From Haloarcula mannanilytica (GTDB lineage Archaea > Halobacteriota > Halobacteria > Halobacteriales > Haloarculaceae), in the NCBI RefSeq assembly GCF_005406125.1, contig NZ_BIXZ01000002.1, forward strand, positions 1-64,000: a DNA stretch of 64,000 bases. Direction: 5' to 3'. The notes under the pieces are model-generated. The model was not told where the DNA came from. It made no database searches and saw only the letters and a program-made list of their open reading frames with translations. Made by a program: the position numbers and the translations under genes. Below are positions 21,079-26,403 of this stretch, piece after piece. Every line of letters starts with the position of its first letter. Position 1 is the first letter of the stretch.

Positions 21079-24000
21079 TCAGTTCTCGTCGGGGAAGCGC
21101 CGTTTCGAGAGCGCCATCGGGTCGGCGTTGCCGCCGACCGGCCGGAGGACGACGCCGAACGACGCGTCGTCGACCGGCACGGTATACTTATCAAGCGGTT
21201 CAGTCGGCGTCCCGCCGACGCCGGTGACCCGGTGGTCTAAGTCGAGCGTGACGGTGTCGCTCTCAGTGAGGTCGTGCTGGTGGGCCGCCTCGTCGAGGTT
21301 GGCCCAGTGGTCGGTGTTGACGTTCATTGACCCGTCGAGCGGCAGGCCAAGCAGGCCGGCCCCGTCGCCGTCCGAGAGAAGTGCCCACCGAGCGTCGGCC
21401 TTGTTCCCGTTCTCCGTCGGCGGCAGGTAGGGGACGTACTGGTCGGTCACTGACCCCTCGTATCGGCCCACGCGGACGCCCCACTTCCGGTCGGGATAGG
21501 TCTCCTCGGGACCGGGGCCGTACCACTCCAACTGGTCAAATCCGTCGGGCACGTCCATACGAAGGCCCACCTTCGGGAGGTAGTCGGAGACGGTCTGGCG
21601 GAGCCGGTCGTTGGGCGAGGCTGTCACGTCGACGGCCACGTCGCCACTCCCGAAGACGCGGTAGCGGTACGTGGCCGAAAAGCCCGGTCCCTGCCTCGAT
21701 ACCGTCTCGAAGGAATCCATGTTCAGCCAGGCGACCGCACCGTCGAGGGCAGAGGTGTCCGTCGCCGCCACCTCGTCGTCGCCCAGCCCGCGGTCGAAGA
21801 TACGGACGTTGTCGATCCGCGTTCCGGCCGCAACGCGGGCATCGCCGTCGTTACCGACCGTCACGCCGGCGTCGGCGTGCTGAAGCGACCCGTCGTAGGC
21901 CTTCGTGTTCTGGCGTTCTCCGTCGACGTAGAACCGCAGTTCGCCGGCCTCGGGGTCCCAGACACCGGCGATGTGGTGCCAGTTGCCGGCCCAGTTGTCC
22001 GGGACGGCCGTCGAGACCCAGTGCCACTCGCCGGTGTTGAACGCCAATTCGAGCGCGCCGTCGCGGTCGCCGGACCGGCGCTTGAGCAGGTACTGGCTGC
22101 CCTTGACGATGTAGGGCTGTGGGCCGTCGCCGTCCTGTGGCTCGCCGGGCCTGACCCAGCATTCGAGGGTGAGACCGTTGTCGGTGATATCGAGACTGTT
22201 CGATGCCCCCAGCGAGAGGGAGCTCTGGCCGTCGAATTCGACGGCCTGCCCGGAGACGCCGGGGACGACCTCGGGACCGTTGTGGAGCGTCGCGTCGTTG
22301 CCGAACTCGGTCGCGTCCGGCGTGATTCGCGTCGACGACTGCTCCTCGAACGCGTCGAAGGCGTACCAGAGCACGGCGCTCTCGGGCGGCGAGTCGAACC
22401 CCGAAGCAACCTCGTCGGCCGACAGCGCGCGGTCGAATATCCGGACTGAGTCGATGGTCGTCTCCGCGTACCGGTCGGACTGCTCGGCGTTGTGGGCGAC
22501 CTGCACCGGGTACTCCGTCGGGACGAGGTCGGTCACCTCGTGGGACTGAGTCGCGACCTCGGAGCCGTCGAGATAGAGGCGCAGTTCGCCGTCCGCGCAG
22601 ACGCCGACCAGACGGTGCCAGGCGTCGGCCGCCGGTTCGCCGGGAACGTCGGCCCGCACGGACTTCCAGGCGGACTCGCCCTCGCTCGCGTTCGGGTCGT
22701 AGATGAAAAAGGAGAACTGGTCGCCGTTGATCTTCAGCGCGTAGTGGGTGTCGCCCTTCGTGACGAACGGGCTATGTCCGTCCGTGTCCGTACCCTGGAA
22801 CGTCACGGAGACGGTAAAGCCCGGTTCGGCGAACCCGAGCGCGTCGAGAGCTCCCGCGTCGACATAGTCGTCCGATCCGTCGAAGGCGATGGCCTGGCCG
22901 GACTGTCCGGAGACGATTTCGGGGTCGCCCTGCACGGTCCCGTCCGCGCCGGTGCTTGAGGCGTCGGGAGTGACCAGCGTCTCGCCGGGGGCGGCCCCTT
23001 CGAGGAAGGCGTCGACCTCGACAGTTGCGAGTCCGTCGGCGGGCCGGGCGGTGCGGACGGCGTCGACGGTTTGCGTGAGGTCGTTCAGCCCGGCTGCCCG
23101 CCAGCTAGAGGCCTGTTCGCTCCCCCAGCTCACCGACTCGTTCATGATGGGGACGCGCCAGGTGTTGAACTGCGGACCGGACGCGAGGCGGTCGGTTCCG
23201 CCGTACTGCATCGACGACAGCCGACCGGACTCGGTGTCGACGGTGTACTCGAAGCCATCGCCCGAGACCGTGACGGAGCCGTCGGACTCCGACAGCGAGA
23301 CGGCCGGCATGTCCTCGACGGCGACAGGCTCGGGCTCGGGCACGTCGAATGGGACCTCGAACTGGTCGAAGGCGATCTCGTGGCCCGCGTCGGCGTACGT
23401 GGTCGCGGACGCGAGCGAGAAGGCGAGTTCGAGGCAGTACTCCGTGCCGGGTTCAGGGTCGGCCGGGGCGTCGAGCGGAACCTCGACCGGGCGGGTCTGG
23501 CCGGCCGGCACGTCGAGGTCGAGCGAACCGGACTGAACGGCTTCGCCGTCGGCCGTGAGCGCCCACTCCCCGTCGACCACGCCGAGGTCGGTGAACGCGA
23601 AGTGGTTCGTGACGTACACCTGTCCCCGCGTGAGGTCCCGCGGGGCCACCTTGACTGGCTGGTGACTGTGCTTGAGCTGCAGGAGCTCCGGCTGAACCGA
23701 GCGGTCGGACCAGACTAAGCCGTTCAGGCAGAACGGGTCGTCGTCGTAGAACTGGTAGTCCGTGCCGTCGTCGGTCGTCGCGTCGATGTCTTGGTTCACC
23801 CAGTCCCAGACGAAGCCGCCGGCGAGGCTCTGGTCGCGGAGCAGGGCGGCGAAGTCGTACCGGAGTACCGCATCGTCGGTCTCGTGGACGGCCGAGACGG
23901 CGTCGGCGTCGACCGCGGTATCGAGGACCGACACCGCATCGAGCGTGATCGGCTCGTCCCGGCCGGGCTGCGTGTGCGCCCCGATGCGGAACGGCTCGGA

Positions 24001-26403
24001 CTCGTCGAGGACGGACGCCAGCGAGTGGCTCGTCGAGGCGAGTTCCGAGCCGTCGAGGTACAGCGTGAGCGTCTCGGGCGTGCAGGCAACGGCGACCGTG
24101 TGCCACTCGTCGGGAGCGAGCCGACCCTGAGGCTTGCCGGAGACGGACGCGTCACCGAGAGTGAGTTCGATGTGTCCACCCTCCCGGACCGTTAAGACGT
24201 ACGCCTCGCCCCGCGAGACGAGGTCAACCTCGGTGTTCGGCGCGACCCCCGTGAACGTGACCGCGAGCGTGAAGGTCGGGGTGTCGAACGCCGCCATCGA
24301 GAAGTCGGGGACCTCGATTCGGTCGTCCGTTCCGAGCGTGACCACGCCCCCGGACTCGCCGGGTTCGACGGTCGGGTCGCCGACGAGGACGCCGTCGGTG
24401 CCCGCGCCGGTGGTGTCGCGGGCGCGGCGCGCGTCGGGCTGGATGTGGTTCGACCACATCGCGTGGACCAACCCGAGGCTGTTGCCCATTGCGTGGTTAT
24501 ACTCGCCCATCACCACCGGGCGCTCGCCGTCGCCGATGTGTGAGCCGTCACCGGTAGCGAGTAGCGTGTCCACGCCGGGGTAGCGCGGGCCGAGCATGTC
24601 GCTGTACTCGACGTCCCAGCCGCCGCCGTTGGGCTGGTGGTACATGAGCCGATCGGGCGCGAGGCCCTGCACCGGACCGTCGAAGCTATCGACCGTCGAC
24701 GCGCCGGTCACGTCGCTCGTGTCTTCGGGCAGGTGCTCGTCGGAATCCATCGCCAGCGCAGCCATCGCCAGGTGCTCGCCGCCGGTCCCGGCCTCGTTGC
24801 CGGTCGACCACGAGAAGATGGACGCGTGGTTGCGGTCCCGGAGGACCATCCGCCGGAACCGCGAGACGGCCTGGTCGTGGTACACCTCCGTGTTCGCGAG
24901 CAGCCCCTCCCACCAGTGGGTCTCGACGCCGACCTCGTCCTGAACGTACAGGCCGTACTCGTCGGCCAGCCGGTAGAACGTCGGGTCGTTCGGGTAATGG
25001 GAGGTCCGCACGGCGTTACCGTTGTGCCGCTTGAGCAGTTCGATGTCCTCGCGTATCCGCTCGACGGACACGGTCCGTCCGGACTCGGGGGTCGTCTCGT
25101 GGCGGTTCGTCCCGCGGACCTCGACCGGTTCGCCGTTGACCAACACCTGCGCGCCCCGCTGCCCGCGGGTGGTCTCGTAGGTTCGGAAGCCGACCTTCTC
25201 GAACAGCGCTTCGGTCGTCTCCCCGCCGGCGACGAGTTCGATGACGACCGAGTAGAGAGCCGGGTCCTCGGCCGACCACCGCTCGGGCTCGGAGACGGTC
25301 GTTTCCAGCGTAACCGCGCCGCCCTCCGCGCCCACGTCGACCGTCTCCGAGAGCGTTTCGACGGCCGACCCGTTCGGGTCGTAGATGTGTGCCCGGACAG
25401 TATGACTCCCCTGGGCTTCGTCGGCGAAGTTCGCCACTTCGGCGTCGACCCGGAGCCGGCCGTGCTCGTAGTTCTCGTCGAGGCCGGCCCGGGCGTAGAA
25501 GTCCCGGACGTGGACCGTCGGCGTCGAGTAGAGGGAGACGCTCCGGTAGACGCCCGAGTACCGGAACATGTCCATGTTCTCCAGGGATTCGCCGTCGGAG
25601 AAGCGGTACGCCTGAACGGTGACCGTGTGGTCTTCGCCAGGCGTGATATGGTCGGTGATGTCGAACTCGCCGGGCGTCATCGACCCCTGCTGGAAGCCGA
25701 CGTAGGTCCCGTCAACCCAGACGAAGTAGGCCTGCTTTACGCCCTCGAAATGCAGGAACACCTCGCGGCCGTCCCAGTCCGTCGGCACGCCGAACGACCG
25801 CCGGTACACGCCGACCGGGTTCGTGTCAGGAACGTCGATGTCGCCGGCCGTCGGGTCGAGGTTACCCGAGAGGGACGGGTCGTACTCGTCCCAGGTGATG
25901 CCGGTGTTCGAGTAGATTCGCTGCCCGTACCCCTCGGTCTGCCAGACGCTCGGAACCGTGATCGTGTCCCACTCCTCGTCACCGAGCGAATCCGGGACGT
26001 TCGCCGGCTGCTCGTAGAACTTGAACTGCCAGTCGCCGTTCAACAGTTGAAAATACGCGGAGTCCGACCAGCGGTCTTCGAGCGCTGTGAACGGTTCGTC
26101 GGCGTCGCGGGCCGCGCCGACAGAGCCGTACGGTATCGCCGTGGAGACGTGTGTCGGCTCCCGGTTCTGTTCGAACACTTCCGGGTCCTCGATGTACGCG
26201 CCGAGGTTCTCGATGCGGCCGGGACCGCCCGGAGACTCGACCTGTGCGGTTCCCTGTACCGCGCCGGCGGCATCGCCGCCCACGCCGGCCGCCAGCGCGG
26301 CCAGCCCCGTGGCACGGAGGAAGTCCCGCCGCGACGCCGAAATCGCGGCGTCGCCGGTCGTCTGTGTCGTGCGCCCGTCCTGATGTGAATCGCTGTTTGG
26401 CAT
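21079..26403 (-). CDS. lacZ: secreted GH2 beta-galactosidase with three embedded LamG-like domains
   Basis: A 1774-residue protein, about 750 longer than E. coli LacZ. Residues 1-50 are a Tat signal (RRDFL at 25-29, then a hydrophobic stretch). The GH2 sugar-binding domain (about 60-300), Ig domain and TIM barrel follow. The acid/base is Glu537 ([13 protein letters not shown]) and the nucleophile Glu634 ([12 protein letters not shown]). The sequence from residue ~655 to ~856 is a concanavalin/LamG-like domain inserted in the barrel; [11 protein letters not shown] resumes at ~861. Two further LamG-like domains (about 1145-1340 and 1345-1560) interrupt domain 5, which resumes at [15 protein letters not shown] and continues to [16 protein letters not shown]. 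Secretion folded and the extra domains suggest attack on an extracellular galactan or glycoside. Confidence 0.93.

Follow-up and report, generated by a model that had tools for sequence, protein, structure and literature searches.

LamG domains inserted into LacZ-type β-galactosidases have been described before: in some proteins of this type, a Laminin G3 domain lies between the GH2C and DUF4981 domains (Talens-Perales et al. 2016, PMC5145203). Judged by position, these are very likely the proteins that we call site-B proteins below, in which the LamG domain falls at the equivalent of E. coli LacZ residues ~577–603; we saw such proteins in Bacteroidota, Actinomycetota, Bacillota, Planctomycetota and some haloarchaea. 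Here, we analyzed a 64,000-nucleotide stretch of DNA (the window) from Haloarcula mannanilytica (contig NZ_BIXZ01000002.1, positions 1 to 64,000), which encodes a LacZ-type protein of glycoside hydrolase family 2 (GH2) with three internal LamG domains. The protein resembles the published group in its five-domain LacZ core, in carrying one LamG domain in the barrel/domain 4 region and in being, like them, probably secreted. It differs in that this domain (LamG1) is inserted before strand 8 of the barrel, not after it, and in that two more (LamG2 and LamG3) are nested in domain 5. A tree of the LacZ cores supports evolutionary kinship between the two. A literature search that included few subscription papers turned up this one direct mention of LamG in LacZ, and no published description of a LamG domain before strand 8 or within domain 5. 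Judged by that search, the three-LamG LacZ is a new arrangement; LamG insertion into LacZ itself has been known since 2016.

Domain architecture of the protein

A preliminary description of this DNA had proposed that LamG-like domains interrupt a LacZ protein at two internal places and leave the GH2 core intact, and both parts of that proposal held. The open reading frame (ORF) begins with ATG, contains no internal stop and encodes 1774 residues with a predicted pI of 4.2. In Pfam searches, all five LacZ domains were matched: GH2_N, GH2, GH2_C (Glyco_hydro_2_C, at residues 417–650 and a second stretch), LacZ_4 and Bgal_small_N (two stretches, the best at 1566–1753). Laminin_G_3 (PF13385) was matched in three stretches, with a whole-protein E of 6e-54 and 182.7 bits against a gathering score of 27.6. 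We also built an independent profile from LacZ proteins without inserts. Its match to the protein is interrupted at E. coli residues 554/558 and 842/843, with the LamG stretches at 663–854, 1147–1352 and 1363–1565, and LacZ numbering resumes in register after each insert. The nucleophile motif is found at residue 634 and the GGFVWDW motif at ~862. Nor are these segments an ordinary part of LacZ: the E. coli enzyme and ~80 other LacZ proteins are without them. The protein did not reach the NCBIfam β-galactosidase equivalogs NF052611, PRK09525 and PRK10340 (best, NF052611, 722.9 bits against a cut-off of 999), and it had no match among viral contigs.

Could the arrangement be a product of chance, frameshift or misassembly? 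This was ruled out, because a congener (genome G016, locus L002) has a protein of identical three-insert architecture and 74% identity in the same lipA-lacZ-pdhA locus, and because the inserts are under purifying selection (see below). The twin-arginine translocation (Tat) signal suggested earlier was recovered by TIGR01409 (17.8 bits, cut-off 16.7); the Pfam Tat profile PF10518 scores below its cut-off.

AlphaFold2 (AF2) models were made separately for residues 65–1140 (domains 1–4, D1–D4) and for LamG1 alone, and haloarchaeal orthologues were left out of the alignments. The D1–D4 model superimposes on E. coli LacZ with a Z-score of 42.9 (780 residues, 2.8 Å, 32% identity). LamG1, modelled with 22 other LamG sequences, gave a predicted local distance difference test (pLDDT) of 89.7 and a predicted template modelling score of 0.87, and matches lectin-like jelly rolls in the PDB at Z ~17–18. 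Its top fold matches include clostridial toxin binding domains, which reflects the common jelly roll. The same fold is inferred from sequence for LamG2 and LamG3. A PDB sequence search yielded no solved LamG-inserted LacZ, none of its 60 best matches being longer than 1084 residues.

Features of the LacZ-type gene in the window (residue numbers refer to the 1774-residue product)
Feature	Position	Strand	Basis
Whole gene, LacZ-type GH2 with three internal LamG domains, 1774 aa	21079..26403	(-)	ORF + Pfam
Tat signal region at the N terminus, residues 1-49 ([17 protein letters not shown])	26257..26403	(-)	TIGR01409
Domain 1, Glyco_hydro_2_N, residues 119-295	25519..26049	(-)	Pfam
Domain 2, Glyco_hydro_2, residues 297-407	25183..25515	(-)	Pfam
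First part of TIM barrel with strands 1-7 and helix 7 (residues 417-655); catalytic E537 (acid/base) and E634 (nucleophile)	24439..25155	(-)	Pfam + LacZ profile
Arg607 at E. coli Met502 position, subfamily marker	24583..24585	(-)	alignment
LamG1, residues 659-853, site A between helix 7 and strand 8 (E. coli 554/558)	23845..24429	(-)	Pfam + LacZ profile
Remainder of TIM barrel, strand 8 (GGFVWDW) onward, residues 860-925	23629..23826	(-)	LacZ profile + model
Domain 4, LacZ_4, residues 929-1018	23350..23619	(-)	Pfam
First part of domain 5 (residues 1035-1135, Bgal_small_N); Trp1093 aligns to Ser796 of E. coli	22999..23301	(-)	Pfam + LacZ profile
LamG2, residues 1143-1356, at site C in a hairpin of domain 5 (E. 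coli ~840-849)	22336..22977	(-)	Pfam + LacZ profile
LamG3, residues 1357-1566, tandem after LamG2	21706..22335	(-)	Pfam + LacZ profile
Domain 5, second part (Bgal_small_N), residues 1567-1774	21082..21705	(-)	Pfam + LacZ profile

Active-site signature and predicted activity

Besides the five-domain core, the window protein shares with E. coli LacZ the catalytic residues E461 and E537, the Mg site (E416, H418) and the galactose (-1) subsite (N102, D201, H357, H391, N460, Y503, H540, W568, F601 and N604; E. coli numbering). The preliminary description had left exo- and endo-action side by side; because the residues of this subsite are all conserved, exo-action is the more likely and endo-action the less likely of the two.

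Apart from Tat secretion and the three inserts, the differences from the E. coli enzyme are these: Met502 is replaced by Arg (Arg607), Ser796 is aligned with Trp1093, W999 is absent, and Y105 and the 589–600 stretch are changed or missing, the segment after strand 8 being short. According to the passages of PMC4074863 that cite the relevant work, the lactose-contacting residues of E. coli LacZ include W999, and its active-site loop is governed by Ser796. Arg502, Trp796, the missing W999 (the aglycone platform of the E. coli-type lactase) and the shortened stretch after strand 8 all lie near or face the aglycone.

W999 is gapped in 18 of 80 insert-free LacZ proteins and substituted in others, so that it is not a defining residue of the whole family. 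Arg does not figure among the residues common at position 502 in that set, and every Arg502 sequence tested is without W999, nearly all of them having Trp at 796. In these alignments, M502R, the absence of W999 and (nearly always) Trp796 mark one LacZ subfamily in which the galactose-binding residues are intact. We found no solved structure for this subfamily. A core tree (IQ-TREE, 995 columns) supports the Arg502 subfamily at 98.

The explanation that we favor, and consider reasonably probable, is that the protein is a LacZ-type GH2 enzyme whose five-domain core is complete, namely a Tat-secreted, retaining exo-β-galactosidase that would free terminal β-galactose from a non-lactose, possibly acidic, extracellular galactoside. 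The LamG domains, which are inserted into connections without shifting the register of the core, would act as peripheral accessory modules.

Position, constraint and history of the LamG domains

Mapped with the insert-free profile, the LamG domains of this family fall at four sites. Site A (E. coli ~554/558), used by the window protein, is the connection between helix 7 and strand 8. Site B follows strand 8 and is used in Streptomyces, Amycolatopsis, Virgibacillus, Alteromonas, Bacteroidales, Planctomycetes, Halanaerobiaceae and several haloarchaeal paralogues. Site C is the domain 5 hairpin and was seen in our sample only in site-A clade proteins from haloarchaea. Site D (E. coli ~289), in domain 2, occurs in two haloarchaeal paralogues that also use site B (L044:2206-7404 and L175:2941-7962); the C-terminal tail of the former resembles ricin-type repeats. 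Orthologues from Natrialbaceae and Halalkalicoccus (L038, L039, L040, L042 and L045) have low-complexity, RGPP/GKGK-rich inserts elsewhere in domain 2 (E. coli ~265), near the loop that reaches the neighboring subunit in E. coli LacZ.

In (β/α)8 barrels, the connections that follow strands form the catalytic face, and those that precede strands lie on the opposite face. LamG1 is probably on the far side of the barrel from the active site, because the helix 7–strand 8 connection precedes a strand in this topology. This bears on an alternative, contained in the preliminary description, in which all three LamG domains are carbohydrate-binding modules around the active-site cleft that extend its subsites for a bound polysaccharide. 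LamG/concanavalin-like jelly rolls are often sugar binders, the enzyme is predicted to be secreted via Tat, and in the bacterial relatives the LamG domain does occupy the strand 8–helix 8 connection, on the catalytic side. An arrangement at the mouth would fit those site-B proteins and the haloarchaeal paralogues that share the site. For LamG1, however, it was rejected: the insert lies before strand 8, on the opposite face, and LamG1 is the least conserved domain of the protein, with only seven columns at ≥90% among 28 orthologues. We regard the alternative as improbable. Of the earlier structural expectation, the LacZ-like core stood and, for LamG1, the jelly roll did but the location at the mouth did not.

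Conservation differs among the three domains. In the 28-orthologue set, mean identity is 0.375 for the site-A LamG versus 0.675 for the barrel, 0.58 for the LamG2 type versus 0.63 for domain 5 in the proteins that carry it, and 0.68 for the LamG3 type versus 0.69 for domain 5. Between the window protein and its G016 counterpart, the nonsynonymous rate (dN) is 0.283 for LamG1, 0.188 for LamG2 and 0.145 for LamG3, compared with 0.105 for the first barrel part and 0.166 for the last part of domain 5. As LamG2 and LamG3 approach the identity of domain 5, they behave like parts with a kept role, and they would be the better candidates for a retained function, e.g., substrate or cell-surface binding. 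LamG1 diverges fast, as it would be free to do on the far side of the barrel, and would serve either as a spacer or as a diversifying module with variable binding.

A purely structural role would account for some of these data. The LamG domains might bind no ligand and instead provide acidic surface bulk, an oligomer contact or a block to the E. coli-type tetramer: all three are very acidic (pI 4.1–4.3), LamG1 diverges quickly, and LamG domains appear and disappear among close relatives while the core is unchanged. Acidity, however, is general in this protein, the LamG2 and LamG3 types are nearly as conserved as domain 5, and the site after strand 8 has been reused in several separate LacZ lineages, which suggests a benefit. 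We consider this role possible but doubtful. Less probable still, and in our judgment quite unlikely, is that the domains are neutral or selfish passengers, i.e., modules with adjacent ends and a propensity to recombine, which insert into tolerant loops and subsequently disappear. The patchy gain and loss of LamG domains is in keeping with this notion, as is the patchiness of the gene itself, which is decaying in congeners. Yet dN/dS between the window protein and G016 is 0.29–0.46 for the inserts (it is also <0.5 for the two core segments named above), and each LamG type broadly tracks the core tree, as under vertical descent.

The search for the same insertions in other haloarchaea, suggested at the outset, was productive. 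The orthologues in Haloterrigena turkmenica, Natronococcus sp. AD-5, Halalkalicoccus jeotgali, Haladaptatus halobius and Halostagnicola larsenii have the same signature residues, a LamG domain at site A and one in domain 5. Among haloarchaeal orthologues, the domain 5 LamG is single (LamG2-type or LamG3-type) or missing, whereas the window protein has both; across 391 class-level and 146 family-level genomes, only the G016 protein also does. Many of these orthologues, unlike the window gene, are on large plasmids near sugar-use genes.

The site-A clade is haloarchaeal, patchily distributed and supported at 100 in the core tree. Its sister is a LamG-less haloarchaeal LacZ (L157; support 100), and together they are nested among site-B lineages, with some weak deeper nodes (60–87). 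The site-B insertion is also found outside the Arg502 subfamily, in lineages that keep Met502 and mostly W999; therefore, site B was used more than once or was lost often. In a LamG tree, shallow in places, the site-A domains group with the LamG2 type (local support 0.98) and the LamG3 type is separate. Comparison with relatives thus shows repeated gain, movement and loss of LamG domains, confined to a few positions in the protein. Judged from the trees, the ancestral position in the subfamily would be after strand 8, and the haloarchaeal clade, whose LamG domain lies before strand 8, would have gained those in domain 5 later; the tandem in domain 5 may be either old and thinned by loss or assembled late.

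Some haloarchaeal members of the subfamily recall LacL/LacM, the two-subunit β-galactosidases of lactobacilli, in being split into a D1–D4 + LamG protein and a Bgal_small_N protein; the window protein, in contrast, is a single chain. In locus L159, the D1–D4 part with a site-B LamG (5980-9006) is followed by Bgal_small_N with an extra β domain (9053-10684), and L160 has a similar pair. The large part stands alone in L154, L155, L156 and L007.

Genomic locus, substrate and significance

The window gene lies between lipA and pdhA, as does its G016 counterpart. In most congeners, these two genes are spaced by ~100 bases, and the gap (window positions 20031-27900) is a variable slot in the genus, holding lacZ or other DNA of 2–10 kb where the two are not adjacent. 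Relics of lacZ remain in the slot in two congeners: the first 49 codons in G026 (L181:1531-1677) and the last ~47 codons in G008 (L182:1220-1366). Both adjoin apparent transporter and PHP-type genes. Because of these relics and the near-adjacency of lipA and pdhA in most congeners, lacZ has probably long occupied the slot and has often been lost from it. Elsewhere in the window (10854-14042) is a gene for a 1062-residue chemotaxis receptor with two HAMP matches and a large sensor part, in which Cache-type domains were matched more than once.

In other haloarchaea, the genes near the orthologues include those for GH115, mannonate dehydratase, KDG kinase and KDPG aldolase, for α-L-fucosidase with rhamnose mutarotase, or for GH97 with a sugar ABC transporter. 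Along with Arg607, these neighbors suggest a galactoside bearing uronic or other acidic groups.

Some points weigh against the favored reading of a secreted exo-β-galactosidase with accessory LamG domains. The idea of an acidic substrate derives from one arginine and from genes beside relatives. The window gene itself stands alone between lipA and pdhA, with no adjoining sugar-use genes, so that any substrate hint comes from relatives. Finally, parts of LamG1 have a pLDDT below 50 in the D1–D4 model, in which strand 8 behind it (model residues 796–802) is confident; the low confidence arises because that alignment held no LamG1 homologues.

A broader scenario is tentative and, taken whole, rather unlikely: within the M502R/no-W999 subfamily, LamG domains would have switched sides of strand 8 and then spread, to the hairpin in domain 5 and also, in the case of paralogues, to domain 2, forming a natural insertion series at four points. 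In it, the far-side LamG would diversify binding and the domain 5 pair would retain one constant ligand, and the whole would be linked to a new specificity for acidic galactosides.

Whole domains nested in a catalytic barrel are uncommon. Relatives with zero, one, two or three of them at defined points allow the cost and use of insertion to be compared. The M502R/no-W999 signature sets apart a LacZ subfamily known to databases only as "glycoside hydrolase family 2"; where annotated, the haloarchaeal orthologues bear in RefSeq only the name "glycoside hydrolase family 2 TIM barrel-domain containing protein". The substrate of this subfamily would explain part of haloarchaeal complex-sugar use.

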